DNA of 64,000 nt, from NCBI GenBank assembly GCA_001599295.1, contig BCGN01000008.1, positions 868,001-932,000 on the forward strand, in the 5' to 3' direction. The position numbers and the translations under genes are program-made. Each line of letters opens with the position of its first letter. Position 1 is the first letter of the stretch. Below the pieces are notes generated by a model. The model had not been told where the DNA came from. It searched no databases and was given only the letters and a program-made list of their open reading frames with translations. The DNA comes from Sporopachydermia quercuum. Its lineage: Eukaryota > Ascomycota > Sporopachydermiomycetes > Sporopachydermiales > Sporopachydermiaceae. Shown here piece after piece: positions 417 through 60,440 of this stretch.

Positions 417-2164
417 TTATCGGTATCGCCTAAGTAACAATTGATACAGCCAGCTTTTCAAGTTACCTGACCGTATTATATTCTCAGCAATAAATCCAAG
501 TGCTAGAACAGAGCATCCTAAACTCATTGTAAACACTAATGAATAACAATTATGGCCAATGATACACGCGTGAATCTCCTTGCCATCTTCTTTTGTTATG
601 GTTTGAATATGTGAATCAAAAACTACGCCAAACAGGATATTAAAACTATATGAAGTTAAAATAGGTGCCATTGCAGTGAAACCATACGTTTGAGCAAAAT
701 TCTTCAGTCCAAATGTATCAGCTATAATTGATGGGAACAATCCATAACAGAACCCATAAGCTAAACCTGTTGCTGACGATAGTATCCATAAACTATCAAT
801 ATGGCTTATTAACATACCGAACATTTGATTTAGAACTGTTAAAACCCCTGGAACTAACAGAATATAATTCCTTGATAGTTTCAGTTTTGCATCAACATAA
901 TCAGATAAAACACCAGCAGCAATTCTCCCTGAAAAACTTGCTATTGATATAAGTGCAACGTGATACTGTTGAATTTGCTGCACCTTTGGCTCATCCAGAT
1001 TCAAGCTGAATGTCAATGCCCTTATTATATATCCACAAGAGTAAATATATAATTGGCCAACACCAGAAAGAAGTCCCAATATAATAAAACAAGACCAGAA
1101 GGCAAAATGTTTCAATAATCTAATTCCTGCTGCTTCATGTAATTCATTGCTTAGTTTTTCCATTATCAGTTTAGGAGATGTAACCACTGGAGATAAAACA
1201 TCATTAGTCCGGCCAATACCAGGTTCAGCAACAAAGGGTGCAACTTCATTCAACATAGCACTTCCAAGTTTTGGACTGAAATATGCGTTACTACTTCTTG
1301 GGTCTGAAATATCATCATCTGCTTTCAATTTAGGTGTAGATACTCCAGAGCCTAATAAATGTAATTCAATATCTGATCCTCTGGAATTAAGAGCTGTATC
1401 TAATCTAAGATTTGCAGACCCTAATCTTTCCTTCAATTCGTCTTCTAATGATTCTCTATTCTTACCAGCTTGTGGTAAAGGATTATAAGCGATACTAGAA
1501 ACTGTGGCTGATGTTGTCATGAAAGGCAATGACAAAACACTGAAAATAATTGATGAAACTATCAGTAAAACTAATAAGTGTTCAGTACTGCCTGGAAAAG
1601 CCAAAGATGCAATAAACGAGTAAAACGAAGCTGAAAGGCCAAATGCCGACACTGGCATAGCAGAAGCTAATGCTTTTTGTCTTGGGAAATTAACGGTACA
1701 GCATTTGATAGCTGCAGTGACTCCTAATTGACTACCAATCCCAACCAGTGATAAAGACAATGCAACAACCAAAAAATGACCCGTGGCCTTAACGTATGCC
1801 AACCATATAAAATAATATCCTAACGCNTTGATTAACCCACAAAATAATACTGGTAAGAAAAATCCTTTCTTATCAACAAAGTAGCCAGCAATAGGTCCAA
1901 CCAGCGACATTCCTAATGAGCCAATTAATATAATTGATGATGTTTCTGTAGTTGTAAAATTCAATCTAGTAGCTAATTGAGTACTATAAGCTGAAAACAT
2001 ATACATAGTTCCGCTTATAAGGCCTGATTTACTGTTAGTATTGTGTTAGGCCATATTTTTCTTATTTAGGAATCGATCCAATATTATGAACACATACCTA
2101 TTCCAAAGCATGAAGCTAATAAAAACGCTTTACGGACGTTTGGTGATAGAAAAATGACCGTCAT
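417..2164 (-). CDS. MFS transporter, nodulin-like / YMR155W-MCH1-like, two exons
   Basis: Major facilitator of the fungal nodulin-like group; substrate unknown (relatives are called monocarboxylate-like, not proven). Exons: 2164-2098 and 2023-417 on the minus strand, 557 residues. The large open frame alone starts inside the first membrane helix; an upstream ATG at 2164, preceded by an in-frame stop, is joined through a 74-nt intron (donor GTATGT at 2097, branch TACTAAC at 2040-2034, acceptor CAG at 2024). The splice gives AFLLASCFGIGLISGTMYMF, a proper first helix. About 12 hydrophobic segments are split by a long polar loop (roughly residues 190-320) with three TPKL/SPKL motifs, likely cytoplasmic phosphosites. 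GYFVDKKG after helix 2 matches the MFS loop 2-3 motif. Length is close to S. cerevisiae YMR155W. Family sure, substrate not. Confidence 0.88.
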
Positions 2165-6198: not shown

Positions 6199-9100
6199 CT
6201 ATACTACTGGCAACTGGAACTTCCGATTGTACTCCCGAACAGCTACTCCAATCTTATTGTACAAAAACAATCTTCCCGAAACATCGGGAATCGGAATGAA
6301 AGGTCCCGCTTTACCTCCCTTCAACTTTAATCCTATTCCGGTAGCTTCCTGACTGATTTCGGCAATAGAATCAAACTTTATAATCCATCTAGTCTCCAAT
6401 TTGTAAATACTAATCAACATTATGCCCGTAAAGGTAACTATAACCGCTAGTTCATCTCCGGGTAAATTAATATGCGCTAAATATTTCTCTTTAAAGTAAA
6501 AGCCTTCATCTACCGATTTAAGCCAAAACTGTCCTTGTGCTTCTCGTACCGAATATGGTTTTAGTAGTCCNTCCACGGGAATATATCTGGGCAATCTTAC
6601 CTTTTCGATCATATTCGGATCAAATACCGAGGTTGTGTTCCGAAGTCCAGCACTAATGTTCCCAGCAAGGTCAAATACGCCAATTGCCGTTTTAGTAGGC
6701 AACCCAACTAGGCCTTTTCCTAACCCTTTAAAGAACCCGGCTGCTCCTTCCTGCTTAGCTCCTTTAAGCGGGGCCATCGCTAATCCGTTAATTCCGCTGG
6801 AAATTCCGTCGAAAAAGGAAGTGGCCCCAACAGTAAATCCGTAAATGGCATGACTCGGCTTATTTCGGTTCATATTTAACCTTCTTTTGTCCTGAAAATC
6901 TTTATCCATAGTTGCCACGGTTAAGCCTTTGGACATGCTTCCGCTGAATCGAGCAAAACTGTCCGAGAAGCCGAAAACCGACTTCTTTAAGAAACTAATT
7001 CCACCTTTGGCTAATAATAAACCTACTTCTTGAGGTCGGTCATTTAGTATGTAACCTTGGTAAGGTTGGTAGAACAAATCCATAACTCCGGATGAAATGT
7101 TGTTGATAAGACCAATGGGATTGCCTAAAATGTCGGCCGAACCGAGGATTTTATGCGTTTGGTAAATAATGTCTTGCATATAGCGTTGTTTCATAGCCGC
7201 AAGTAGTAAAGGAAGCGAGGCTTTAAGGTTTCGGCGATAGAAACAGTTTAGCCTTATTGGAGCATTATTAACGTTTCCGATCGCCATTGTTAAGATATTG
7301 AACACGAACATGCTGGCGGACTGTTTAGGAGACTTAGCAGAGGTTTCGGTATCGATTCGTTCCGTGCGGACAAACGTTAAATTGAATTGAGCGGGATGTA
7401 AATATAGTGTCTCAAAATAAACTTCCGAACCTTCTCCAACATTGCCCGGTTCGGGAACTTTGACCATGTCTTCGCACAACTCTATTTCGCCATCGGGGAC
7501 CTCACTTGNCAACCCAAGTAACTCCACAAACTCCATTAACCCAAACAGGAAATCCTCATCCAACTCTATCGACACCTCCTGCAATAGCAGCGTGGCTAAT
7601 TGTACTACCGTCACATCATTCGCCACATCCTTCACCATAGTAACCATTGCCGAGATTGTCGGATGCGCCTCCATTTCTCGGCTTGTTTTCGGAACAACCG
7701 AAGGGTACAAAAGAATAGGACAAACGCCACCGAATAATTGATTGTCGATTTGCATCCATTTAAGCTTCAAGGTTAGCTTTTGATAGAGCTCCGAGTCTCG
7801 GAAGTGAAACTCTAATCCTCGGAAGGTGAAATAGCACAATTCCTGTTGTCTCTGTGTCACAACAGAAATGCCGATTCCTTCAAACCGAACGTTTAAAGTT
7901 AAGTTTGCTTTGTCGTCATTGTTGTTGGTTACTGCCACAGAAGCGGATATCATATCGGGAGTCCCCGTTCCCGTGCCGGATCCATTATAATCTCCGGAAT
8001 TTAAGCTTGTGGTTGATGAGCCCACTTGTGATTGTGTAAGCCTGAACAAGCTTCCTATTCCGGGCTCTGATTCGTCCGCTTCGGTAATTACAAGCGATTG
8101 CGTTGGTCCGTCTGCAACTACGGCTATTTCTATAGTAACTGCGGGAGAGTCGGGTGTTCCCGGAAGCAATAGGGGCCTCACTGTTCCGATTCTTTCTAAG
8201 AAGACTCTTCTGGCTCTACCCCGCGCTACAATTGTGATTTCTTTCTGCTCGACTGCTGGGTAATCCCAGGCATACTGCATAGTAGAACGGCTATTCAGTC
8301 GGAAGTAAACTGGTTTCATCCGGGCTTTTCCGAGCCTCTCCGCTTCGGCTTCTGCTTCGGACCCAATTTCAACTTCTGTTTCCGTTTCAGGAATTGATTG
8401 GTAAAACGTGAAATCAACGTTTGTGAAGTTTCTTACTGCAAACGGCCATTTACCAGCAGCATCGTCAACATGTAGAAATAAAGTTGGCCCTTCGGAGAAA
8501 ACCGTTAACTTTAACAACGTATAACCCTTCCGTTGCCGCAATAACTTTAAGTAGGTCACTCCTTCTTCCGAAATAGGAAATCCTGCCGACCATACTCCGT
8601 CTGAACCGGGTAATTTAGCCGAAATCAATTTCCGGATTCCCCTAGTTAGGAAATATATCGGAAGTAAACCTCCCGGAGCTAATTCAACCGCTTGTCCCGA
8701 ACCTGATTCCATTATTAGCAATGATTCTCTTATATTACTCTTTATAGCATATCTCGGCGTGATTCTAACCAAGCGAACCTTCCCGTATTTACCCAAGCCG
8801 TCTTCGGCTTGGATACCCAAATAAAGTGCACGGTCTCGGGTCTTTTCGGGCAACGCAATTTCAAACGAGTTACCCGTCATTTCAAAGGTAATTTCGCGGG
8901 ATGAACAACCAGGGATTTGCAACAACAAGGGGCGAGGATTCCCTTCTGGGAAGGAAAACAACAATGGTTTGGATTCTGTACCCGCTACAGTCGAAATTGC
9001 TGAGTTATTCCCGTCATGTATCCGCAATAATTTCCCTGTTTGGTTAAGAATCACGTAATCGGACCGGATAGAGATTTTTGTGCCCTTTTCGGCATAACTT

Positions 9101-12100
9101 AAGCTTAGCCGGAGCTTTTGTCCGTCTTCTCGGCGTACAAATAAAGAATTGGCTCTATTCTCGGAACCGGGGCGGCCTGGAGTGTGAATTAAAGCCGGTT
9201 CCGACTGCCGAGAATAGCCTTCCGCCTGGATTTCGGCTATAATGCCTAATGAGGTTGATCTATCAGCAGCATATACGGCGCTAGTCTCCCCTTTAGGTAA
9301 GAAATGCCGGGTGATCTCGGAGCCGTTCTTCCCAACTAGGCTATATGCTATTGCATATGGTAATAAATTTTCTATTTGTAACGGAGGGCGAATTTCTAGA
9401 CTGCAGTGCGGATAAATCCGTGCCAAGGGATCCTCAGTATTAACAATAGCAAGCGCTTGGAAAAACACTGAATTTTGATCCGCAAAACTCCGACACCGGA
9501 TAGAATAAGACTTGTCCATAACCTCCCGCCATCGAATAATATCTCGCGACCATTCATACCCGGTTTGTCCCGGAGGTTTAACCACAATGCCATGGTTATA
9601 TGTGTATTGAATCGGAATAGCTCGGAATCCTCCCACCGGAACTTCCCAACTCCATTCCGGCTTCCATGTGTGGTCCCGGATTTCTGTCCCGTCAACTGCT
9701 CCGATTTCTACCGCCATATCCGTTCGATTCTCGACCTTAATTGCCCCTCGTAGAAGAATCCGTTTCACACTATGCTGTAACAGCTCCGTTTCGGCAATCA
9801 ACCGCTGGAAAACCCCGGAAGTCTTTGGCATCAAAACATACACCTCTTCCCCCTCCAAAGTTACGGAAATTCCGAGCACAGGTTCAAAAGGGGAATTCAA
9901 TAGCCGAAGCCCTAACACCCCACCTTGAGTATCAACGGATAAGTTCTCCCGCACTGTCCGCCAATCCTCAAAAGCCCACGGAATGGATTCTCCGTCTTGA
10001 AGGACCTTTTTTCGAGGTTTCAAATAAGGTTCTGACCCAATATGCCCACTCCTGTCCCTTCCGGAGCTTTCGTCAACCCAAATCTCAATTGGGTAGCCTG
10101 TTTGGTTCACAACTTCATAAGGAGCCATTTCTCCTCGGTCTTTTCCGAAAACATCCGAATCCGACTGCAGAAACTCCGAAACATGTGAAAATAGGGCGAT
10201 ACTCTGGTCAGTGACGGATACTTCCACTAGTTTACCGGAGATGATGTCCACAACCAGATTTCTTCCGTTTTTCCCTCCCGCGGGACGAGTCACGTGGATT
10301 CCAAGATCCCAGGGCTCCACCATCGGCTCCCATCCTGATTTGGAGTAGTTAAACACGTTAATATACGACGTGATTGTGGTGTCGGCATCTAGGTCCGCGG
10401 ACCAGTTTTTGGTCGAGATCGTGAATGGCTCTATGCCGAAATCTAATACGGGTAACTCATGCACGGCTCCAATGAAAACTATGCGGAGGCCTTCAATATC
10501 GGCGTTTAAAGTTTCGCCTCGGATAATAACGGGATTGTTTTCTGCTGCAGCAAGAACTCCCGATGCCTTGGTGGAGCTTGTGGACATTGTAGAGATTGAG
10601 TTTGCGTATTGTTTGAGTCGAGATTTGAACTCCTTAGAGAAATCAGCCACAAGACCGGCGGCTTCCGCTGGGTCGTCTCCAGAACCTGACCTATTGCCTC
10701 CCGATTGTGAATATTTACCCTGACCCGCAGTAATCGCCGAACTTGTAGTATTTACCGTTTTCGATGCTTGGGAGAATACAGTTAACGCTAAATGGATGTC
10801 CCGCAATGAAACTCGGAACAACATCGGCTCAACAGAGATCTGGATCCGTGTTAAAAGCTTATTTGGGTCTGGAGACCGTTCATCGACAGAAACACTTAAA
10901 GAAAAGTCGTCTAAAAACCTAAGGCGAGCCTCTTCTCGGTTCATCCGAAGTAAATACATGCCGAGGTTATTCGCTTGTAAGGTTAAAGTTTCGTGGTAGG
11001 ACAAAAGCAGTTGTTCTAGTTTCAGGACAACGGCTTCTGATTCGGAATTCGTCGGGTCGGCAATAAGAAACACCGAAGATTCCACGATATTTACTGAAAA
11101 TGACGTTTTAGGTCCGGGATTGCCCGAGTTTTCTTCCGGATTGTAATTAGCCGTGACAATACCCATTGAATCTTTGGTATTATTTCCTGTTTCCCGATTA
11201 CTATCTTCTCCGAAATCATCTTTTCCAGTTCCGTAATCCTCCTCTCCTTCGTCTTCATCCATCTCTTCCGNTATCACTAGCCGCTCTCCGGCATGAATGC
11301 CGTTGTCGTAGAACTTCTGCAACAAAAACAAATAATCTAATGACATGATTACTTCCGGACTATCAACCGAAATCATATAAACGGTATGACGAGTTTCCGG
11401 TTCTCCCGAAGAGAAACCGGAAACGATAAACTGGTATTCGTCTTGACTACTTGATGGGATGATTTCTGTAAATTGGCTTTCAGTGTTTTTTCGAACGTCT
11501 TTAACAGTGAATGATTTTGTATGGATATCTGCTTTGAAGTTGCCGTCGGATGTTTGTTTGAACCGAGCTCCGATTCCGTTCAATGAGAAAGTTGTTAATT
11601 GGCAACCTTCAACCGAAATTTTATCGGCAGTGTCAATAAGCAGGGTAAGGGCGAGTTTCTGAAGAGTGAACTGTAGCTCGAATGCCGAGGGAGACGGGGA
11701 GGGAGGGGTCGAAACTGGAACCGGAACCGAAGTGGAAGTGGAAGTGGAATTAATGGGATCTGAATTCGATATTGTTTGCGATTGGTCTTTAACAATCAAT
11801 TCCATATTCCCTCCGTTAGTGTTTCTCCTTTCGGCTCCAGTTTCCACACTATCTCCTATGCTCGAAACATCTTCAGTTTCACCTCCTATTCCGGAAAACA
11901 CCTCGGGAATATGTTTCACAATCTCCATAATCAGCGCCAGTTGTAAATCAGATAGCCGAACTTCAACATCCGCCATTCGGCTAATCACCACAATCGCAGG
12001 GCGATCTTTGGCATTGTCCACTATGGAAATATCAAAGCCGAGATCCAATCGGTCTAGAATTTCCAGCTTTTGCACCTCAAAGTTACCGAGATGGAAAACG

Positions 12101-15100
12101 GATCGAATACTCGTAGATTTAATTCCCGCGGATATGAAGTTTTCTGGTCTAATGAGTTTCGGGACGTCACAATTACTGCTTTCACTTCCATCGTCTTCTC
12201 TGCTTTCGTAATCCCGAAATTCATTCCGAGCATAAAATTCACCTAATCTCACAGTAATCATGTTGTATTTGCCGTCTGAGAAGGGAACGATTCTTGGGAA
12301 GACTATAATCGGGGTTTCCACTCGGACGTCGAATTTCATCTTTTGTACTTCTTCTGTTTGTACCTGATCTAAAGCCGCCATCCGAGCCGAGTCATAAAAC
12401 TCTTTCATCTGTTGGAACCGAGATAAAAAGCTTAGTAGTTTACCGATAGGTTCTTCTATGAAGTTGATCCGGATACTTGACACATTAAGGTTCAATACCG
12501 AAGTATGGGCTTCTGCTTCCGATAGTGCTATTACTCCTTCCTCTTCCCCTTGCACTTCNACTGCCGGCTCTGCTTCAGGGACCAAAGGTTGTACGCCGAG
12601 AGTTTCATAGTTAAACGTCAAAAGATTGGATCCGTCGATAGAAACGAGTTTCCGCATTACTGAGTTCCGAGCTGATCCGATGTTCACGTCATCATGAACA
12701 GTTAAAGCTCCGACAGATCCCGAGACTTTCATCCGATCGGCAATAAGATCTACCGAAATTCCCGCTTCAGATAACCCAATAGTTGCCAATTTGACTCCGT
12801 CGTCATTCAGTATCAGTACAATATTCTGAAGGCCAATTCTAACGGTAATTAACCCTGGTGTCTGTGGTTCCGAAGAAGCTGAATTTTGGCTTGCAATGTT
12901 TTCTTGGTTAGGTGATAATGCAGAAGACTCAGTATTCAAATAAGGTTCGGGGACCTCTGGATTTGTAAATGTCATTAGTGCAAAGTTTAATAAAGTTAAC
13001 CAGCTAGATCGGTTGACAACTATTTGTAACGATTGCAGGTCTAATTTTATAGTCTGGTCACAAATAGGCTCGTCGGCATTATTGCCTGCTTGAGAACTAA
13101 GGTTATTATTGGGCCGAGCCGTTCGGGTATAATCTAAACAAAATAATGGAGAAGACACAATGGAATCTTCCGAGATTTCGGATATCTTATCAGCCGTTTT
13201 AGGTTCCAAAGTATTTCCAAAACTGGTAATGAGCCGAGAGAACTCAGCAATTGAACTCTTCTCAATGAAATCATCAACTGCTAATGAACCGAGAATTACA
13301 TTCACAAACATCTCATCGATTGTTCGGGAGAACCGGAGACGGAATTTACTCCCAATTAGGTCAATCAGCTTAGTTTCCTTGGCGACATCGTCAGAGTCGC
13401 ATCTGTACAAGGAAAGTATGATTTCATGTACGCTAAACTCTAGTTCTAAGGTCTTCTGTTTAACGGGTTCTTCCGAAAGGACGGAAGAGTCGTCGGAAGA
13501 TGAGACTTCCTGTTTAGGCAATTTCTCAGAGATTTTCACCTGGTTGTCCGCCGGTTTTAACGCTATCTCCGATTCAACCTCNGAGGTTGAATCGGACTCA
13601 GATGTATCAACTTCTGAAGCTGCGTCGGAAAAGATATCAATATCGCCTTCATTATCTCTTCCGCTTTCTGCTTCTGGCTCCGTTTCCGGTTCTGATGACT
13701 CCAAGCCTAATTCATCTATTAACGGAACAATCGACTCCCGTTTCCCGAGGAATTCCCGGACAAACTTTTCTCCATCGTCAAATGAATTTGCGTCTTCGTT
13801 CTTATTTCCATTCTTTTTAATACTATTGCCGCTATCACTATCTTTTCCGAAATCAGGAATACATGTATCTAATAACTTCATTAAGGTCTTGTACTGGAAA
13901 TCGGATAAAGCGGCTCGGAATCTCGGCAATGTGCCGGAAACCCGGATCCGTGACATGTTTTCAACTCTTGGTAGAATTGAAAGCTCCACAAGCATTGTAA
14001 TATCAAACTGGTCTAAAATTGAATAGGTTGTTGAACTTTCCGACATTTCTTCTAAGCTGCTTTCCGCTATGCCTTCCGATTTTTCAGGAAACTGTATCTT
14101 CTCCGGTGTCTTGTTGCCTTTATGTAACTCTTGGAAAGTATCGGCCAATGTCGGACCAATTAAAACTTGAGTGTTCTCTAACCGAAGGTTGAACCTATCG
14201 TACAACAGCATCCGTAGGGTTTCCCAATCGCCTTCCGAATATACCCGATCGATCCGTTCTGTGAGATCTGTGAACTGTTTCCGGTCTTGTAAATCGGAAG
14301 TAATACTAATATGGCCCGCGTCGATGATTCCGCATGGAGCATTGCCGTTTGTGTAGTCTAAGGGAATAATTATAAGTGGGGCTTGTAAATCCAATCTAAC
14401 TTTTATGGTTTTGTGGCCTTCTAAGGCATATTCAAGACCCATCCGTGTTTGTTTCGTAACCGTCTCAACGGTAGCTTCCGCTGCCGAGATTATTGCTCCG
14501 ATTGTATCTAAATGAGCCGAAGGCGGCCTGAAAAAGCCGAAAATACGTTCTAAAAATGTAGCGTGGTAATAAATTGTGAGCGAGTCGGAACGCATACTTA
14601 AGGCCGAGTCGGCCGATCCGTCGAGCGGATTGGATTCGAATGACATTTCAAAGAATGGCCTGACAGGTTCGGAAACGATAACACTAGAGGCGGAAGAAAT
14701 TGCGGAATCAATGGCCAAATCAGAATTGATACCGGAAGGCGTTTCGGAATTGATACCGGAAGGCGTTTCGGAATTGATACCTAAATTGGCACCAACAGCG
14801 GTTTCCGGAATTCGAAACTTACCGGAATGGATATCGGAATGTACCGATTTAACGGAAATGATATTCTTATAAAGAGTATTTCTACTTCCATCTTCAACCC
14901 GAAACTCCCGAAGTTTTACATCCGTTCGGAATGAATCTGGCCGTTTCAGTACAGCAGCGGAAAATTCTTCGAAGACTAGACCAGCTATTGTGTTCTGATT
15001 CTCCCCATGAGGATCCTGAATGATCCGAAGACTTCCCCGGGTCAAACTTAAAGCCAAAGCGGAAACTATCCGATCTTTCGGATAGTTTATTGCTTCCGTT

Positions 15101-16813
15101 ATCTCTTTAGCTTCGTCATTATATCCGATAGTCTCATACAATTCTTTCCGTTGTTCATCCGTTATTTCCATGGTTTCCATTGCGTCCATCGTTTTCTCAT
15201 TATCACCATCACCAGCATTACTTTCGGTATCACTAATGGTCTCGGGTTTCTTCTCATTTTTAGTAGAACCACCCCACCAGCTACCCCACCAGCTTGTGGA
15301 CTCCCCACTTCCTTTTTTAGGTATTTCTTTCCGTTCTTTCCGAAGCTCAGATTTAGCTAGCGCTCGGTAAAATCTTATATCCTCAACCGAGATTTCATCC
15401 TCAATTGCCGTAATTTCCGCTTTTTCTTCGGGTGAAAGCGTCTCGGTTAAAATCTGCTGCTTATATAACTTCAAGTACCGTTTCCGAACATCTCGTCGAT
15501 GTTTGAAATATTCCCAGCTCCATTCATAATGCTGCCGGTGGACTTCGGAATGAACTGCTTTAGCAGCATACACAAACCAGGCTTTCGGATCATCCCGAAC
15601 CGAGGTTTTCGGTCGAAACTGTTTGTACGCTCTGGTTTTGAAATACCAGTGGAATTTGGACGCTGTCCAAAGAGCATCTCGGTATTGGTCGGAATCTAAG
15701 TTGAAAGCTATTTCCTCAAACAGTAATTCTACCGAAGTTTTAGGCTGCGTCTCTGTGGCACCGGCTTTATTCATTGTGATCCGACCCGTACCCGAAATAG
15801 GGCTCATTATNTATTGGAAGTCAATTTTTGAGTTACTATTGGACTCTGAAACCATATCGGTATCCTGTCGGGTTTTTGGTTCCGTGATACTCCGAAACTC
15901 GGCTAGTAATTTCTCGGGATCGGATTTCACTTCTGCTGCCGAGACCTTATGCAGGTACTTGCCATCGGATCCAGTATTGAAATACATTGCTAATGAATCC
16001 AATGTTATAAGTTTATGTGTAATGGCTTGGGACACGGAAATGAAATCCGGTTTCCAATCCGAGGTTGCTGAAACAGCCGAGAGTTCGGTCAAGGTTATAC
16101 CTACCGAATAGGGAAATAAGGTAACGTCCAAAGAGGAATCTTCGTACCTAATATGGATATTTTGGATGGTTATTTGTAGATTGTCTACAATTTTAGTAAT
16201 CAAGCTTTCATTGAAGCTTTCGTTTTTGGCAACTTCTTCCGAGGTGAGTTCCTTATTAGGTTTGTTTTTCTCAATAAGATTAAGGTCTTTGATTTCTTCC
16301 CGTTTCCGAAGTAATGCCTTTTCCGCCTCCGCCTTTGCATCATACTCATTGGAAAAAGCAGGAATAGCTAAAAGGTACAAATCTTGCACCACGATTTTCA
16401 CCGGTTTGGACTTAAGGTTCGACCACGGAATTTGTAATGTGAGTTCTCCGAGATGTCCCGCAAGCACTTGTAGCGGGATTTCCAGTTTATCCAAGGCTTC
16501 CGGCCGAAGTTTCAGATTTCGGAGCTTCACATCTCCAGACCAAATGCCGATATTTAACTGTTTTGGGTCGAAATTTTCAACCTAGAAGAATGAAAAACGT
16601 TAGGGGGGTAAAGGGGAGTAATGTGAGGTAGTGTAGGATTAACTTTTGGAACAATTGTGGGTATTTGTGGGAGGTACTTACATAGGATCCCTAAATAACG
16701 TTAGTATGTTTCTCGGATAACTTTACCAAAAGCAGTAAAGCGAAAACAGGTACACAAGACTCAAAACTTACGATTATTCGGTTCAAAATGCCGGCGGCTA
16801 AAGATTCAAGCAT
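6199..16813 (-). CDS. VPS13: VPS13 bridge-like lipid transfer protein, three exons with a 9-nt microexon
   Basis: Rod-shaped protein that moves phospholipids at membrane contact sites (vacuole, mitochondria, ER, endosome, prospore membrane). Exons on the minus strand: 16813-16772 (MLESLAAGILNRII), 16690-16682 (GSY) and 16581-6199; 3477 residues against 3144 in S. cerevisiae. Introns are 81 nt (16771-16691, branch TACTAAC) and 100 nt (16681-16582, CCTAAC). The join rebuilds the family start, MLESLAA...GSYVENFDP...GIWSGDVKLRNL. Chorein N-terminal domain: about 1-120. The adaptor-binding VAB/SHR-BD region starts near residue 2165 (NQTGYPIEIWVDE). The VPS13/ATG2-type C-terminal region lies near 3120-3200 (IGLINNISSGVMDLFYQP) and a PH-like end near 3384-3477. 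Acidic linkers and a GINSETPS repeat explain the extra length. CpG-rich codon use sets it apart from most genes here. Confidence 0.95.
13568..13596. repeat. Perfect 14-bp-arm palindrome centred on an ambiguous base inside VPS13
   Basis: TCCGATTCAACCTC, one N (13582), then GAGGTTGAATCGGA. It lies inside the VPS13 reading frame in an acidic linker encoding SDST-(S)-EVESE, so the frame is kept. Confidence 0.85.
14723..14781. repeat. 24-nt in-frame tandem repeat in VPS13
   Basis: Two identical 24-nt units (14723-14746 and 14747-14770) plus the first part of a third. On the coding strand each unit adds the octapeptide GINSETPS to a linker. A recent in-frame duplication is the simplest reading. 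Confidence 0.9.
16682..16690 (-). other. VPS13: VPS13 microexon (9 nt, encodes Gly-Ser-Tyr)
   Basis: Read on the minus strand: intron 1 ends CATACTAACGTTATTTAG, then GGATCCTAT, then donor GTAAGT of intron 2. The nine bases supply exactly the GSY that precedes VENFDP in VPS13 proteins; without them the conserved motif is missing. Both flanking introns have full consensus signals and the exon is in phase 0. Confidence 0.93.
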
Positions 16814-36707: not shown

Positions 36708-38624
36708 ACTGAGGACTACATGAAGGTAACAGAAAGTGATCCTGTTGTGATAATGAAAAAAAAATAATTTTTTGTTCTTCATTATGTTGATCATAACTTA
36801 TATTTGCATTTGCATAAACGTATAACCCAGTGCATAAGATTAGATGCTTCAATCAATAGCAGTTGGTTTCATCTGGATCTTATATTCATTGAATGAATTA
36901 GATACATCCTTTTTCAAAGTATTTTCATTCTGTATTATATTGAGTTGGTACTATTTTCTATGAGCTGTAATGTAAATTCAAATCATTCACTGTAGATCAT
37001 ATTTATTTGAGTCGAAAATTCGATCTCCAAATAGAGTTATAGTGATACCGAATAAAGTTATTTTCTGAAATTGAGTTTCATCGAATCTGGACAAATCAAG
37101 AAGATAGTTTAACTTCGTTAGACTATACGAATTGTGAATACACAGAAAATTATTTCTATGACTCAATTGATAGTAATTTCTATATTGAAGAAGAGTTGAT
37201 GTATTAGATTTGGGAACTTTGAGAGTGGACTGATATCAGTGCAATCCACTTTAATCGGTTTCCTATGAAATCAAGGTAGGTTTTCCAGTGCATAAAGTTA
37301 TAACCTTATTAGCATGTACGTAATTCACTCTTTTTGAATCGCTAATCGCTTTTCCTACATACTAATTAAACTGAAAGAGCTGATCCTAGTTGCAGAACTA
37401 AAAAGATTAAATTCTCAATGCTTGACATGAAGTACTGATCTTCTTCAGCTAANTTTACGTACCAATTTCTTGACCGAGTACTCCCACCAGTATTCAAGCA
37501 TTAGTGCTTTGACGTTTAAGGCTACACGAATCTTATGCAATAATCCTAAGCGAATTGAAACTCTAATGAGAATATTCAGATGCAGTTTTCAAATGACTCA
37601 CTCGCTTGCTGCCTTAACATAAATAAGAATTTATGTGAATGAAACGGTTCAAACAATTACCTTGTTTTGAGTATTGACTGCCATTGTATTTAGTTGACCC
37701 AGCCAATCTTTGTAAGATCTTTTATAATCAACCGTTCAGATTTATCTTGACTGACTGTGATCTACTTAGTTTCCGATTGAAATATTGTGAAATATGAAAA
37801 CACAGTGTATGCTTTGATAAGTCTAAAATCCTATAAAACTTCACAGAGTACAAGGCAAAAAGAAAGAAAAAGCAAAAGAAAACATGAANCTCAGTGTGTT
37901 TAATGTATATCTATGATGAAACTAGAAATTTTACTAGAAATTTTCAATCATCTTTCTGATTGACTGCTGTCGTAGTATTTCAGTAGATTCCCCGAGAGGG
38001 ATATAGTTGAGGATAAACTTCCATTGTCATGATATAATAGCATCTATAGGCAAACCTTGTTTTATTTAAAGCGATACACATAGGCCTTCTCTGAAGCTAC
38101 ANATTTGACAACTAACAAGAATTATGGCTATATTATGTAATTTATTCAACCCACTCAGAGCTTGCTGGTTTTCACCGGTTTCTACTATTTTTTCTATCAT
38201 CTTTCCCGTCATAGCCGATCCTCCCAGGTCCTATATTAGACTCGTAATTTTATTCTAACTTGACCCAGTGCAAATTAGCTTAAATTATTTTGAGTTAAGA
38301 CGTGAGATTTAAGCTTTGGACCTTTACTTTTAATATCAAACCTTAAGTTGCCTAACAGAATNTGTTATTTTTTTCTTTCATCACCTGTCTCATATCATTC
38401 TACTACACCTTGCCTTGCCTTCTTTCTCTTTATACTATAAATCTACTCCCTGATCCTTCTTTTGAACTGTACTTACTTGAATTAAACGTATTACCGAATT
38501 CTTTAATGGTTTGTCGTTTGTAATTTATTTAGTCCTTGTATCTCATCAGAATTATTTCCGATTTAGATCCCAGCAATCAAATGGTTTCTATTTGACCTGC
38601 TCCAATTGAATAACCAATTAAGAG
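36708..38624. other. Intergenic region upstream of PYC1
   Basis: 1.9 kb with no supportable gene; open frames are short. Ns at 37453, 37889, 38102 and 38362. Pyrimidine-rich tracts near 38375-38450 may belong to the PYC1 promoter. Confidence 0.55.
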
Positions 38625-41600
38625 ATGTCCAAAGTCAAGATGGAATCAGAGGATGCTATTATGTCTAATATTAGACATAGTAGCATTATTCTAGATTCAA
38701 TGAATAAAATACTTGGTAAGTAATTCGAATTCTTACTGTTGTTTTTCTAAATGATCATAGTAGTATTCTAATAAATATCTTCATTTATCTAGTTGCCAAT
38801 CGTGGTGAGATCCGTATGTCATGAAAGGTTTAGTTTGGCTTAACTTTGAGTGCTGATTTTCACAGCATTTGAATAGTTAAGATAACCATTATAAGTAAAC
38901 AACATATAAATAGAGATGCTAACCACATGGTTGAAATCGATTGATCATTTGGTGTGCTTACCAACTGATTGATTTATCCTTTGGTTCATTCTTAACAGCT
39001 ATCAGAGTAAGTAATTTCTTGGTGATTTGGTGTGTTAGTAAGTGAACAGCAGAGAAAGAAACAAGGCTCGATTTCATTGGTATAGGAATAAGCTAGATAT
39101 CCATTCAGTAACATCAATGATGATATTATCAATTATGACATTCTAACATATGATGTTCAAATAGATTTTTAGGACTGCTCATGAATTGTCGATGCAAACA
39201 GTTGCAATTTATTCTCATGAGGATAGATTATCAATGCATAGGCTGAGTAAGTATATGTTTGATTGGACAGACCAAAAGTAAGAAAAGGCTAGAATCTGAT
39301 GATGTTAAGAATTTTGCTTGGATTATAATTCAGTGCTGTCGTCATTTCTTTAGGTTTTATTTTTTCCGCTGATTCATCCCTGTTAATGAAGGTTGGAGCA
39401 TGCAGGAGTAGTATCAAGCTTTTTGTATTGCTAGACCATCTGCACCTAAGCGATCAAATCATAAAATATTCAATCGACAAACAGTAACTTTTTAACTTTT
39501 TACACTCACAATGAGCTCTCACGACGAGCGAATTCATTCTAATTATAACATGTTCTTGTTCTTGCCTTGCCTTTCTTGATCTCTAAATGTAACCTTGTCA
39601 AACTGTTACTAACTATTAATAATTTACAGAAGCTGATGAAGCGTATGGATAACTTTGAACCTACATGGCTTGTATTATACCCCGGAAATTTGTATCCATA
39701 TCTAAATAAAACTCAATCTAACATTATTACCAGTTATGTCATTGGAAAGAAAGGCCAGTTCTCTCCTGTTCAAGCTTATCTTCAAATCGATGAGATCATA
39801 AAAATTGCCAAAGCTCATAACGTTAATATGATCCATCCTGGTTATGGATTCTTATCAGAGAATTCTCAATTTGCTAAAAAGGTAGAAGAGGCTGGTATTA
39901 CTTGGATTGGCCCTTCTTATGATATTATTGATGCTGTTGGTGACAAAGTGTCAGCCAGGTGCTTAGCGATTGCTAATGATGTTCCAGTAGTACCAGGAAC
40001 CCCTGGACCAATAGAAACCTTGCAGGAAGCTGAAGAGTTTGTCTCTAAATACGGTTATCCTATTATCATCAAAGCAGCATTTGGCGGTGGTGGCCGAGGC
40101 ATGAGAGTTGTTAATGAACATGAAAATCTGAAAGACTCTTTTCTTAGAGCCTCATCAGAAGCTAAAGCTGCTTTTGGTGATGGTACAGTTTTCATTGAAC
40201 GATTCTTACATAAACCAAAACATATCGAAGTCCAATTGCTAGCAGATAACCATGGTAATGTTATCCACCTGTTTGAAAGAGATTGTTCTGTCCAACGACG
40301 ACATCAGAAAGTTGTTGAAATAGCACCGGCTAAAGATCTACCGATTGAACTACGAAATTCTATTTTATCAGATGCAGTTAAATTAGCGAAGTCTGTCAAT
40401 TATCGTAATGCTGGTACAGCAGAATTTCTTGTTGATACTACAACAAATAAACATTATTTCATTGAAATCAATCCAAGAATTCAAGTAGAACATACAATCA
40501 CTGAGGAAATCACCGGAATTGATATTGTCGCTGCTCAGATTCAAATAGCTGCTGGGGCAACATTATCTCAACTCGGTTTAAATCAAGATAGAATATCTAC
40601 TAGAGGATTCTCTATTCAATGTAGAATCACAACTGAAGATCCATCAAAAGGATTCCAACCAGATACCGGTAAGATTGAGGTTTATAGGTCTGCTGGTGGA
40701 AATGGAGTTCGATTAGATGGCGGGAATGGATTTGCTGGTTCAATCATTTCACCACATTATGATTCAATGCTTGTGAAATGTTCATGTTCTGGTTCCACGT
40801 TTGAAATAACAAGGAGGAAAATGCTTAGATCTTTAGTTGAGTTTCGTATTCGTGGGGTTAAAACTAATATCCCTTTCCTATTAGCTCTATTAACTCATCC
40901 AGTATTCAAATCTGGTAAATGTTGGACCACTTTTATTGATGATACGCCATCATTATTTGAAATGGTGTCATCTAAAAACAGAGCTCAGAAACTGTTGAGT
41001 TATTTGAGTGATTTATGCGTCAATGGCTCATCAATCAAAGGTCAAATTGGCTATCCACAATTAAAGACTGAAGCAGTTCTTCCTCAATTGAATGATCCTA
41101 TCACCAATAAAGAAATCGATGTCAGTATTCCTTGCACTAAAGGTTGGAGGTCATTACTCCTTGAAAAAGGTCCTTCTGAATTTGCTAAAGCAGTTAGAAA
41201 CTATAATGGTTGTCTTATCATGGATACCACTTGGAGAGATGCCCATCAATCACTATTAGCAACGAGAGTTAGAACTATTGACCTTCTAGCAATAGCACCA
41301 ACCACTTCCTATGCTTTATCAAATGCGTTTGCTTTGGAATGCTGGGGTGGTGCTACTTTTGACGTTTCAATGAGATTTTTGCATGAGGATCCGTGGGATC
41401 GACTAAGGAGACTACGTAAACTAGTACCTAATATTCCTTTCCAGATGCTGCTTAGAGGTGCTAATGGTGTGGCTTATTCTTCCTTACCGGATAATGTAAT
41501 TGATCATTTTGTTAGACAGGCAAAGGAAAATGGTATTGATATCTTTAGAGTGTTTGATGCTTTGAACGATATTGAGCAGTTAAAAGTAGGTATCGAAGCA

Positions 41601-43058
41601 GTCAGAAAAGTCGGTGGTGTGATTGAAGCTACCCTTTGTTACTCTGGTGATATTCTGAACCCCCATAAAAAATACAATCTGGAATATTATATTAAGATGG
41701 TTGATAAAATCGTGTCTATTGGTACTCATTTTTTAGGTATCAAAGATATGGCAGGTACTTTAAAACCCGGTGCTGCTAAGCTTCTTATTTCTACAATTAG
41801 AAAGAAGTATCCTGATTTACCTATTCATGTTCATACTCACGATTCTGCTGGAACTGGCGTTGCATCAATGTGTTCAGCAGCTTTCTCTGGAGCTGATATT
41901 GTGGACGCTGCATCGAATTCAATGTCAGGATTAACGTCCCAACCATCAATATCAGCTATAATTGCTTCCTTACAAGGAACTATTGAAACAGGATTATCTC
42001 CACTTTACTTGCAATCAACTGATTCCTATTGGAGCCAAATTAGATTATTATATTCCTGTTTTGAAGCTGATTTGAAAGGCCCTGATCCTGATGTTTATGA
42101 ACATGAAATCCCTGGTGGTCAATTAACCAATTTGATATTCCAAGCCCAACAACTTGGCTTAGGAGATTTGTGGAAGGAAACNAAAAACGCATACAAAGAG
42201 GCCAATGCAATTTTGGGAGACATCATAAAAGTCACACCAACCTCAAAAGTTGTTGGGGACTTGGCCCAATTTATGGTTAGTAATAAATTGAGTGTTGATG
42301 ATGTTATTCGTGGGGCAAATCAATTGGATTTCCCTCAGTCTGTTTTGGATTATCTACAAGGATTAATGGGTAGACCTTATGGTGGATTCCCTGAGCCATT
42401 TAGAACAGAAGTCTTAAACGGCAAAAGAAGACGACTGAATGCCCGTCCTGGATTATCTTTGAAATCATATGATTTCAAGTCGATAAGGTTATCTCTTGAA
42501 AGCAGGTTTAATACAATCACTGAATGTGATATTGCTTCTTATAATATGTATCCGAAAGTTTATGAAGAATATAAGAAGATTGTAGAGAAGTACGGTGATT
42601 TAAGTGTACTTCCTACGAGGTATTTTCTTGCTCCCTTGGAAATTAATGAGGAGATTCAAGTTGAGATTGAACAAGGTAAAACATTGATTATAAAGCTAAT
42701 NGCTATCGGAGAGTTATCAAAGCAAACAGGGAAAAGAGAAGTGTATTTTGAATTGAATGGTGAAATGAGAAAAGTTACAGTTGAAGATAAAAGATCATCA
42801 ATTGAAAACGTTAGCAGAGTTAAAGCTGATATTCATAATCCAAATGAGATTGGAGCACCAATGGCAGGTGTTGTTGTTGAAGTTAGGGTCCATGAGGGTA
42901 GTGAAGTAAAGAAAGGTGATCCCGTCGCAGTTTTAAGTGCAATGAAAATGGAAATGATAATTTCTGCTCCAGTTTCTGGTTTTGTCAACACGTTATCTGT
43001 TAAAGAAGGTGATTCTGTTGATTCGATGGATTTGGTTTGTAAAATTGTTAATGGGTAG
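38625..43058 (+). CDS. PYC1: Pyruvate carboxylase, six exons with three tiny ones
   Basis: Biotin enzyme that makes oxaloacetate from pyruvate, bicarbonate and ATP; cytosolic in yeasts, feeding gluconeogenesis, aspartate and lipid precursors. Exons: 38625-38715, 38793-38813 (21 nt), 38999-39006 (8 nt), 39165-39246, 39630-39642 (13 nt), 39734-43058. Total 1179 residues (S. cerevisiae Pyc1 1178). The joins rebuild NKILVANRGEIPIRIFRTAH and RLKADEAYVIGKKGQF, invariant in the family. Domains: biotin carboxylase (GGGGRGMRVV, HPGYGFLSEN, EINPRIQVEHTITEEITG), carboxyltransferase from about residue 560 (MDTTWRDAHQSLLATRVRT, HVHTHDSAGT metal site), and a C-terminal biotinyl domain with AMKMEM, biotin on Lys1143. 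A second Met at codon 6 could also start translation. Introns are 77, 185, 158, 383 and 91 nt; the last has a weak GTATGG donor. Confidence 0.95.
38793..38813 (+). other. PYC1: PYC1 exon 2 (21 nt)
   Basis: TTGCCAATCGTGGTGAGATCC plus one base on each side encodes V-A-N-R-G-E-I-(P). It lies between acceptor TTTATCTAG and donor GTATGT. (Twenty-one bases: the first 20 are TTGCCAATCGTGGTGAGATC.). Confidence 0.92.
38999..39006 (+). other. PYC1: PYC1 exon 3 (8-nt microexon)
   Basis: CTATCAGA sits between acceptor TTCTTAACAG and donor GTAAGT. Joined to the C ending exon 2 it reads CCT-ATC-AGA, Pro-Ile-Arg, filling exactly the gap between GEI and IFRTAH in the invariant GEIPIRIFRTA. Eight bases is not a multiple of three, so skipping would shift the frame. 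Confidence 0.9.
39630..39642 (+). other. PYC1: PYC1 exon 5 (13-nt microexon)
   Basis: AAGCTGATGAAGC follows TTACTAAC...TTACAG and precedes a GTATGG donor. With the A ending exon 4 and the T opening exon 6 it encodes K-A-D-E-A, the ADEAY motif of biotin carboxylases. Confidence 0.9.
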
Positions 43059-47692: not shown

Positions 47693-49001
47693 ACAATATA
47701 TTTATTTATTGATGTTCTCTTGATTTCCAACTAAATTTCGTACCTGACTATTTATCTTTGTATGGACTCAGGCGTTATTACTGTATAGCCAATGGTGAAC
47801 GAGCAAATATAATATAAGAATTACAATACTGATGTTACTATTTGTTGATCTTGTTATGTACTGCTAGATCTCCACAAAATAACTTCCATTGAACTCCAGT
47901 TGATAATAGTTATGATTCCAACAATGGTTCAAGTTTGTTTACAATATACTTCAATATAATCAAAATAATGAATCAGCTATTGCCATAAATATTATGAGAG
48001 CATATAACCAGCTTCCCATATTAATTCGTAGTACACTACTACCTTGATTGTAAAGCAAACTGCTTATCAGCTCAATACAAGTCCAACGACTAGAAGAGCA
48101 GTGACCACAAAGCAAAGATTTTATATATATTGGTAATAATAAAATAATACTTAAGATATCAGAACCTGTTATTAACGTCGCACTTTCGACAGATTTTCTG
48201 TGATTATTGTCATATTTCAGTAAAATTTTACAAGACGCATAGAAAGCAACGAGGAAACCGAGAAACATGGAGCAGAATCGGGATGGTATGAAAAATGTAA
48301 AGCCATGTGATTTCTGCCTAACTCAAAATGGATTCCTTGTCCGTTGTTTTAAATGGGACATTTACGGAAAATGGGACGATGAAATTGTCATATGTGAGAG
48401 GAATGGATGGTACGTAGAAAAGGGAGGACATAATAATACAGATTAGGACTTGACGCGGTAAGATAAAATATTTCAATTTCTTAATTATAGCTTTCAACTA
48501 GACAGTAATGGGGTATGCTCTTGGACAAAATCTTTGTTTATTGCGTCCAATAGTTTTGTCTGTAAACGAATGTCAATGCAATTACCAGTCCAGCAAGATA
48601 GAAGAAGGGTACCTGAATGTCTTGCCTTGAGGATTCTATTCTAATCGAAGGAGTTAATGTACATATTTATCAAAGGAGCAACTAAGTTCAATTTGATAGT
48701 AGCGGAAGTAACTCACTTCTCCCGTATATAATTCATTAATTTCATCTTCAATTCATCTAATAATCATAAATTTTCCCCCAGAATGCTTATAATGAATATT
48801 GAATTTCAAATGTACTAATATGCTTGATCTGACTATCTACAGAAACTTAATTTGTCTTGGCACTTCTTCTCCAAATTCAATCAACTACAACATATCAACC
48901 GAACCACACCTCACGATCGATTAATCTTCGAATCTATACCAAAATCATACTCTACCCATTGTTTATCTAATTGACGCATACATATTTAGTTGGAGTGTAT
49001 C
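47693..49001. other. Divergent HAP3-RFT1 region
   Basis: 1.3 kb. A minus-strand frame of 102 codons at 48268-47960 starts with ATG and has three hydrophobic stretches, but no family is recognised; AT-rich DNA produces such frames by chance. Otherwise AT-rich, nothing recognised. Confidence 0.45.
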
Positions 49002-50750
49002 ATGTCGGAAAAACACGTGGTAGCAAATACTCCTAATCATGATGTGGCATCTTCAGCAAGAGGTGTGACATATCTAATACTGTCACAAGCATTTGCAAAA
49101 CTATCCACCTTCGCTATCAATCAATTACTTGTTAGGCTCGTGAGTCCTCAGTCTTATGGTGTTAATGCTTTTTTGGAGTTCTTAGTATCTTCAGTTGTTT
49201 TTTTCAGTAGGGAAGCTGAGCGGTTATCATGTCAAAGAATCCCAGTTCCGGCAAAGGATAATGAGAAAAGTGACGAAAGTAGCAAAGAAAGCAACAATGA
49301 ACTCTCTACTGTGATTATTGATGGCACAACTCAAGCTTCTATGCAAGGGGTAATCAATTTTGCATATATTGTATTTCTAACTGGGAACATCATTCTTGTT
49401 GCAGTGTTTGGATACTATTGGCGTAATGTTTCTCAAGAGTACCTGACAACTCCTTTTTTTCTATACGCTCTATTTATTATGGCGTTGGCAGTAGAAACAG
49501 AATTTATTATGGAGCCATTATTCAGTCTTTATCAATACAATCTGAAGTTTAAAGAACGGGCAAAGCTTGAGTCGTTTGGGATCACGTTAAGGTATATTGT
49601 AAATTTGGCAATAATGTATCAATTCAAAGGATCTACGTTAAACGTGGCTGTAATTGCATTTGCAATTGGTCAATTGGTATACTCGCTTATCTTGCTAATA
49701 GGTTACAATACTGATTATAGATTAAATGGCAACTTCGAAAATGTTTCTTTGATTCCTAAGAAGATATATATGGATGCTTCTCGAAATGATTATTACTATT
49801 TCCAGCACGATGTCTTCACGCATTGGAAAAAAGTCTGGCTTCAGATTGGTCTTAAGCATTTATTGACCGAAGGTGATAGACTATTAACAGCTACTTTTAG
49901 TACAATTGAGGATCAAGGAGTTTACTCTTTAGTTCTAAACTATGGCTCATTAGCAGCAAGAATCATTTTTCTACCTATAGAAGATGCAACAAGATCTATC
50001 ATTTCTAAACTTTTAAGAGATAAGAGTAATTTAAGGAGTAATCAAGAAACTGCTCGAAAATCTATACTGATTTTACTGAAGCTTTATACATATTTCTTAG
50101 CACTCCTGGTAATTTTTGTGCCCAAAGTAATACCGTTCGTTTTATCCTATTTAGTAGGAAAGAATTGGAGTGATACCGAAGTTCCACGTATATTGCAAAT
50201 ATATGTATACTATCTTCCTTTTCTTGCTTTCAACGGTGTCTTAGAAGCATTTGTTCAATCAGCCGCAACTGGAAGTCAATTGTTACAACAGTCTCGCTGG
50301 ATGATACTGTTCACAGTTATCTATATATCATTGGCGTATGCTTTCTTGGTTCCATTACAGATTGGAATCTCTGGGTTAATAATATCTAATATGGTCAACA
50401 TGTCCCTTAGAATTACGTGGTGTTATAGTTTTGTTTCCGCTTATTTCAAAGCACATGGGTTACATGGTATATCAATAGTCGATTCATTACCTGAGAGCAA
50501 AATGTTGACTATAATCACTGCTTTTATAGCATTAGAACTCTTTCGTAAAGAGAATATACTGTCATTAGTACAATTCGCATTTGTAGCCCTTAGAGCCATT
50601 TCGCTGCTTGGACTTATGTAAGTATGATTGTTTTTTTGAGTCATTTCACTCTAACTTCAGTTGTCACTCACTATACTAACCTCACATGTTCATAGCTGCT
50701 TTTATGAAAGAAACAAACTGTTCAGAGAATGTCGGTCGATATTTGGATGA
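49002..50750 (+). CDS. RFT1: Rft1, ER membrane protein of lipid-linked oligosaccharide assembly, two exons
   Basis: Polytopic ER protein needed for Man5GlcNAc2-PP-dolichol to be used in the lumen (its flippase role is debated). Exons 49002-50617 and 50696-50750; 556 residues (S. cerevisiae 574). The ATG at 49002 (MSEKHVVANTP) is used; the frame extends 12 nt upstream without ATG. Signature blocks: NQLLVRLVSPQSYGVNAFLE, VVFFSREAERLSCQR, and GLKHLLTEGDRLLTATFSTI near the centre. The 78-nt intron (GTAAGT, TACTAACC, CATAG) lies only 17 codons before the stop. Splicing replaces an early TAA with the tail CFYERNKLFRECRSIFG, and the ER..K-type charged tail fits the family end. Confidence 0.94.
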
Positions 50751-58976: not shown

Positions 58977-60440
58977 ATGAGCACTGCTAGAAGAGTGAAA
59001 GGGAGCACAAAGAGAGCTTTTGAACACGTCAAAGAAGACATGGATAGTGAGAGAGAACCCCTTAGGATTGAATACCCACAAATTGAACCAAACGCAAGAT
59101 ACCTTAGAAACTAACTATATGGACAATGCAGCAAAGGTAATGAGAATTACGGTGAAACAGCCTGACGTTTTTATTGGTAGTGATAAGGACTGTAATCGTG
59201 CTATATAGTGGTTAGATAAGTTAGAACTGTATTATCAAATGAATGAAGTTCCAGATACCAAATGGATCATGACTACAATTGGATATGTATCCGANAGAGC
59301 TTATCAGTAGGCTGCAAGATATAGAAGTACAATGGATACGAAAACGGCAAATGACTAGAAGCTTTTTCTGAAGTCTTTCTAATTTCAATTCCAATCTCAA
59401 GAGTTATTAAAAAAATATGAACACGAATATATGCATTTGAAGCAAGATGAGAATGTGCAAGACTACACTAGGAAGTTTAATGAATTGCTTTTGTTGATTG
59501 ATCCTATGTGGGTCGCAAGTGAAGCCATGGTCTTAGAAAGATTTATTGATGGTCTAAGTAGAAGGAATGCTGCCCATGTTCGTTCCAACAATCCTACTAG
59601 TTTGAATAAAGCAATGGGATTAGCTGTGCATGCACAAGAGCTGAACGGATTGAATTATTCACGCAGATACCCAACAACAACTAGAAATGAGTATACATAT
59701 AATAATAAGAACTGGAAGACAAATCAATACAACCGTAACACTAATTATGCAACTTACCCAGAATCAAGATCCAACGATAATAGTAAACCTATCAACGACG
59801 ATAACAAGAGACATAGTGTATTCAGCAACCAAAAACCACGGGCAAGTTCTGCGATATTTGTTGGAACTGTGGAAAAGCCGGGCATAAAACGTATGCATGC
59901 CCTAAACCAAAAAGCTTAAGAAGTCAACAATAGAAACCGGTGTTGACGACAAACGCAAAGGTTTCAACAATACTTTTCACAAGGGAGAAATCAATATTAT
60001 TGAGACTTGGGGTGAAAAATATCGCTTAAACATAAATAAAAAAGAAAACAAATTGAAAAAATGCAGAAGAATTTGACCTACAGCTGGATCACACATTGAT
60101 TTGAGGAGTGAAACATTTTTGAATGTCCAAGAAGAATGTTATTATAATAAACCAGAATCACATGATCTTCTGACAATGAATGGCATAATCAACGATATTC
60201 AGATTGATGTATTGATTGACACTGGCTCAACACGAACTTTATCCTAAAGAATTAGCAGACACTTGGACCTCAAATCCAGGAAAACTCAAATAATGGAGAT
60301 TCGTTCTATATTAGGAGTCAACACAATTTGTAGTGGCCCTGTGACATTCATGATTAAGATGGGACACATTAAAGAAGAAATTGCTGCATATGTTTTATCT
60401 GATTCCAGAAGAATACTTTATACTTAAGAATTAGGGTATA
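58977..60440 (+). mobile_element. Fossil Ty3/gypsy (Metaviridae-type) retroelement, gag and protease remnants
   Basis: Broken element lying between two tRNA genes. Visible parts in order: gag capsid-like sequence (about 59120-59700, including DYTRKFNELLLLIDP), a nucleocapsid CCHC zinc knuckle CWNCGKAGHKTYAC (59859-59900), and a retropepsin-like protease with DTGS at 60218-60229 followed by typical strand spacing. No reverse transcriptase, RNase H, integrase or LTR was recognised, so most of pol is gone. Several breaks are present, pointing to an old, inactive copy. The order gag-knuckle-DTGS and the tRNA neighbourhood favour Ty3/gypsy over Ty1/copia. Edges are approximate. Confidence 0.8.

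Follow-up and report, generated by a model that had tools for sequence, protein, structure and literature searches.

A 5′ set of introns and microexons in a budding yeast pyruvate carboxylase gene, partly shared with a diverged paralog

The first 72 codons of a pyruvate carboxylase (PYC) gene from a budding yeast are split by five introns, leaving internal exons of 21, 8, 82 and 13 nt, and a second, diverged PYC gene of the same genome has introns at the first three of these positions and lacks introns 4 and 5. We consider it very probable (roughly 0.88) that this is a Saccharomycotina PYC with an old, inherited 5′ intron set, in which the microexons would be constitutive, the introns would be recognised by intron definition, and crowding at the 5′ end would reflect 3′-biased intron loss. 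The stretch of DNA that we analysed, referred to here as the window, is 64000 nucleotides long and lies on contig 8 of a genome of 16.39 Mb in 12 contigs.

Structure and coding content of the window PYC gene

When joined, the six exons span 38625-43058 on the plus strand and give a coding sequence of 3540 nt for a protein of 1179 residues; their positions, and those of the five introns, all of which are GT-AG, are listed in Table 1. A first-pass annotation had proposed this identity, together with the coordinates, exon sizes, introns and protein length, and re-reading of the exons, spliced alignment and domain searches bore it out. The exons of 21, 8 and 13 nt, with their canonical flanks, fall within the size bound for microexons that we adopted, an internal coding exon of at most 30 nt, as used in published abstracts. 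Branch-type sequences vary from intron to intron: intron 1 has TTCTAAT and intron 2 has CTAAC, just 77 nt before its acceptor. This variation, and the GTATGG donor of intron 5, we counted against the explanation that we prefer. The window (37.5% G+C) contains 52 N, two of them in PYC codons (e.g. 42182, 42701), and these isolated bases are possibly unresolved heterozygous sites.

Table 1. Coordinates of the exons and introns of the window PYC gene and of the 5′ end of VPS13
Feature	Position	Strand	Sequence features or coding content	Support and comparison
PYC exon 1, 91 nt	38625..38715	+	ATG at 38625; MSKVKMESEDAIMSNIRHSSIILDSMNKIL, then base 1 of a Val codon	Spliced alignment; same-site paralog intron
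Intron 1, 77 nt, phase 1	38716..38792	+	GTAAGT...TAG	Shared by paralog (96 nt)
PYC microexon 2, 21 nt	38793..38813	+	Remainder of Val, ANRGEI, base 1 of a Pro codon	21-nt exon in paralog too
Intron 2, 185 nt, phase 1	38814..38998	+	GTATGT...CAG	Shared by paralog (95 nt); inserts here in two Lipomycetaceae proteins
PYC microexon 3, 8 nt	38999..39006	+	CTATCAGA; remainder of Pro, Ile, Arg	8-nt paralog exon, CTATTAGA
Intron 3, 158 nt, phase 0	39007..39164	+	GTAAGT...TAG	Shared by paralog (324 nt)
PYC exon 4, 82 nt	39165..39246	+	IFRTAHEL...HRL, then base 1 of a Lys codon	
Intron 4, 383 nt, phase 1	39247..39629	+	GTAAGT...CAG, branch-type motif TACTAAC	Absent from paralog
PYC microexon 5, 13 nt	39630..39642	+	Remainder of Lys, Ala, Asp, Glu, bases 1-2 of an Ala codon	
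Intron 5, 91 nt, phase 2	39643..39733	+	GTATGG...CAG	Absent from paralog; site inferred in some Geotrichum-like proteins
PYC exon 6, 3325 nt including TAG	39734..43058	+	Remaining biotin carboxylase, PYC_OADA and biotin carrier domains	
VPS13 start, 42-nt exon	16813-16772	-		Introns of 81 and 100 nt in this 5′ region
VPS13 start, 9-nt exon	16690-16682	-	GGATCCTAT	
VPS13 start, long exon	from 16581	-		

The spliced protein matched PF00289, PF02786, PF02785, PF02436 and PF00364, all with E ≤ 1e-10, so that a single polypeptide carries the biotin carboxylase domain together with PYC_OADA and a biotin carrier domain; the HMGL-like domain was above the 1e-10 cut-off in the window copy and passed it in the paralog. 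The best PDB matches for exon 6 also carry the name pyruvate carboxylase. Once the small exons are joined the N-terminal biotin carboxylase domain is complete: against the 110-position Biotin_carb_N profile the spliced protein covers positions 2-109 (139.6 bits), whereas exon 6 alone covers 55-109 (72.1 bits), a loss of half the domain. The expectation that a gene finder which misses the tiny exons drops the N-terminus was therefore confirmed, the mechanically called ORF beginning at a TTG at 39567.

There are eight CTG codons in the gene, and six of these fall at columns where, of 264 aligned proteins, 224 to 264 have Leu, while at the other two Leu is one of two common residues (beside Gln or Ile). 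Ser was absent from the four commonest residues at every one of the eight columns, and this predominance of Leu is evidence against a CTG-Ser code.

Comparison of the small exons with random and shuffled sequence

For spliced alignment we used a dynamic programme over 38560-40000 that allowed any GT-AG intron of 40-500 nt and permitted simple introns only. The profile was ungapped, with 85 columns, and was made from fetched proteins only, without window or paralog sequence (245 of 270 proteins matched the anchor motif, giving 133 distinct rows). The best parse consisted of exactly the five introns in Table 1, with a score of 293.4, and the top score for 40 random sequences generated from the dinucleotides of the region was only -147. 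When one splice site was forbidden, the score dropped by 29.7 to 67.5 for introns 2-5 and by 6.9 for intron 1, where the loss is small because the profile has four residues ahead of that intron. The first-pass claim that only this splice pattern would serve consequently stands for introns 2-5 and is weaker for intron 1 when judged from the window alone.

In a further test, the sequence lying between the flanking exons was dinucleotide-shuffled 20000 times. Exons of 8 nt that encode PIR, AIR or a close variant turned up in 2/20000 when a consensus-type donor was demanded and in 56/20000 with a bare GT; a 13-nt exon giving KADEA or its Ser variant was never seen (0/20000, or 17/20000 if the match was relaxed to three of five residues), and a 21-nt exon with at least five of eight residues matching was found in three shuffles of 20000. 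By sequence alone exon 1 is the least well supported of the exons: its 15 residues ahead of KILV resemble other yeasts weakly (11.0 bits), a score reached by 6 of 53530 stop-free 15-mers from the six frames of the window, exon 1's own included. Because of that weak likeness the case for exon 1 comes in part from the paralog, in which an intron at the intron-1 position provides independent support.

It is very hard to believe that the small exons match by accident, and that the gene is a 5′-truncated pseudogene or one that starts in exon 6. The window copy is the faster evolving of the two PYC genes (branch length 0.35 versus 0.16), as might be expected of a pseudogene; however, exon 6 is open for 1107 residues with the downstream domains present, the shuffle and spliced-alignment tests argue against chance, and the same microexons are found in the paralog.

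The paralog on contig C1

A search of the genome showed two PYC genes, the weaker remaining matches being other biotin carboxylases as far as they were read. In the paralog (L003, on the minus strand of contig C1) the exons measure 82, 21, 8 and 3420 nt, and the three introns have the same positions and phases as introns 1-3 of the window gene. It can be seen from Table 1 that both the 21- and the 8-nt exon are retained, with Ala in place of Pro at the split codon, while the coding sequence of the paralog is continuous where introns 4 and 5 lie in the window gene. The DNA of the two genes matches at about 75% of positions over 1.25 kb, and their proteins are 77% identical. This sharing is the strongest evidence that the exon structure, as predicted from sequence, is real and inherited.

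A protein tree of 33 rows, comprising the two copies and 31 others chosen among at least 120 listed, placed the genome between Yarrowia/Geotrichum-type yeasts and a group with Pichia-, Candida- and Wickerhamomyces-type yeasts, a position that would suit Alloascoidea or Sporopachydermia. The two PYC copies were not sisters and grouped together in 1% of 200 bootstrap trees. Since they are non-sister and the window copy is long-branched, the tree leaves the age of the duplication unsettled. In the same tree the paralog pairs with protein P0050 (99/98) and not with the window PYC.

The positions of the PYC introns were not seen in two biotin-carboxylase family genes of the same genome. The gene on C5, which we take to encode a biotin carboxylase, has one 5′ intron at a different site, and that on C6, presumably a urea amidolyase-like gene, has no intron at the corresponding motif.

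Signs of the same introns in other yeasts

The wider comparison rests on the 270 fetched proteins, with intron sites read from protein records. Eight of them open with unrelated residues just before the Y(A/V)IG of exon 6, following R (six) or S (two), which fits a gene caller reading through an AG acceptor and a split Ala codon, that is, a phase-2 site for intron 5. As YAIGPKGKYTPVQAY is common to six of the eight and to P0122 (Geotrichum reessii), and several starts are near-identical, these rows amount to a small number of independent cases. The records P0121 and P0122 (Geotrichum reessii) are continuous across the site and were counted against. Inserts between GEI and IR, at the site of intron 2, occur in two of the 270, namely P0046 from Limtongia smithiae and P0130, from a Lipomyces cluster of 24 members, with net sizes of nine and three residues, respectively. 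They fit misannotation that omits tiny exons. A further six rows from Lipomycetaceae are uninterrupted at this site, an appearance that correct splicing would also give. Such protein records give a hint that Geotrichum-like yeasts have intron 5 and that Lipomycetaceae have intron 2. With a Verticillium PYC region as query there were at least 120 filamentous-type rows, the query included, from contigs that may be cDNA; a scan of viral contigs for DNA of relatives gave no match.

These observations bear on the idea that the introns were gained within the lineage, with duplication or gene conversion alone accounting for the sharing of introns 1-3, and introns 4 and 5 being new in the window copy. 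One genome does hold two PYC copies, introns 4 and 5 have been seen in DNA of the window copy only, and 246 of the 270 proteins are intact at GEI(P/A)IR, although records that were spliced correctly, or that come from cDNA, would have the same appearance. Nevertheless we regard gain as unlikely, as the copies, 77% identical and unpaired in the tree, are not recent duplicates, and signs of the intron-5 and intron-2 sites appear in other early yeast lineages.

Other genes in the window and genome-wide scans

The VPS13 gene also begins with small exons (Table 1), including one of 9 nt that encodes GSY, so that a tiny 5′ exon is not peculiar to PYC in this genome. The VPS13 ORF as called, 6199-16530, is without these 5′ exons. 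Elsewhere in the window, an MFS/Nodulin-like gene (417-2006, minus strand; presumably MCH1-like) has an extra 5′ exon and one intron with TACTAAC at about 2000-2164, RFT1 (48990-50621, plus strand) seems to extend past a 3′-end intron to about 50618-50750 (GLI|CFYERNKL), and the ORF at 59431-59919 has a Ty3 capsid-like domain (PF19259).

A scan for microexons with strict consensus signals gave one match in the window, namely the 9-nt exon of VPS13, and one in 200 kb of C8, in addition to the paralog 8-nt exon, with control means of 0.15, 0.15 and 0 and a maximum of 1 in 20 resampled sequences each. The C8 match proved false and sits inside an exon of a gene that we assume to be LSM4-like. The window PYC microexons escape the strict scan because their branch-type motifs vary. 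Scans for consensus introns under strict settings found 18 in 200 kb versus 6-10 in resampled sequence, and five in the window versus 0-3; relaxed settings gave 156 versus 131-140, and 44 versus 45-62. As relaxed signals are close to the resampled level, we draw no intron count from the scans.

Discussion

In the explanation that we favour, the 21-, 8- and 13-nt exons would be constitutive coding exons of the predicted PYC mRNA, and each intron would be recognised across itself, making exon size nearly irrelevant. Introns 1-3, common to both copies, would be inherited, and at least introns 2 and 5 are probably older than the duplication. The crowding at the 5′ end may be what is left after 3′-biased, reverse-transcript-mediated loss, which would have gone two introns further in the paralog. 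In fungi introns are reported to be lost preferentially at 3′ ends, and this has been taken as support for loss mediated by reverse transcriptase (PMC8476143). The paralog lacks exactly the two 3′-most introns, which fits such a bias, though a gain of introns 4 and 5 by the window copy could give the same picture.

We also considered a regulatory switch, by which PYC transcripts with incompletely spliced 5′ introns, or without the 8-nt exon, would enter nonsense-mediated decay (NMD), with enzyme level set by carbon source. By computation, a stop is reached by codon 90 if any single intron is retained or if exon 3, 4 or 5 is left out, and in-frame skipping is possible for exon 2 only. The title of the Yarrowia study discussed below mentions structural constraints facilitating NMD, and a glucose-dependent microexon switch is reported for Xlr2 of Trichoderma virens (PMC11121469). 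However, the same effect is expected from most introns whose length is not divisible by three, and two of the five introns are missing from the paralog. We judge a switch to be slightly less probable even than intron gain.

Exons this small are already known from another budding yeast. In Yarrowia lipolytica 109 genes have several introns, and their internal exons are for the most part short, down to one of 4 nt that was validated by cDNA (PMC2911113); together with the VPS13 9-nt exon, this makes the first-pass description of the arrangement as unusual in a budding yeast an overstatement. The Yarrowia exons are in other genes, whereas here two paralogs share one microexon pair, and the word 'pyruvate' has no occurrence in the main text of that paper. 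Plant microexons of ≤15 nt (PMC8831610) are similarly tiny, conserved and missed by annotation, but are supported by RNA, while those of the window PYC are deduced from DNA and protein. The intron-rich genes of Lipomyces (PMC7138796) likewise show an early Saccharomycotina lineage keeping introns at conserved positions. The case described there is a reticulon-like gene with complex (twin) introns, in which an intron lies within an intron and removal proceeds by consecutive reactions; for the window PYC coding sequence simple introns suffice. We found no report of PYC microexons in the literature searched, PYC introns are not described in the available parts of PMC5366165, PMC3866509 and PMC3073912, and neither the PYC microexon pair nor its sharing between paralogs was found in print.

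A bolder proposal is that PYC of the ancestral Saccharomycotina already had the 21- and 8-nt pair, which would have been constitutive since early in the subphylum and would persist, wrongly annotated, in some Lipomycetaceae and some Dipodascales-type yeasts. Early Saccharomycotina date back hundreds of millions of years, and the pair would then be among the oldest conserved microexon pairs in fungi; we hold this to be doubtful, if less so than intron gain or a regulatory switch.

The gene is an annotation trap, in that a central metabolic enzyme is prone to be annotated without its N-terminus. The same 8-nt exon in two diverged copies offers a compact natural system for studying how a yeast spliceosome deals with an exon of 8 nt, and the window PYC also allows one to ask why introns persist only at the 5′ end of the gene.
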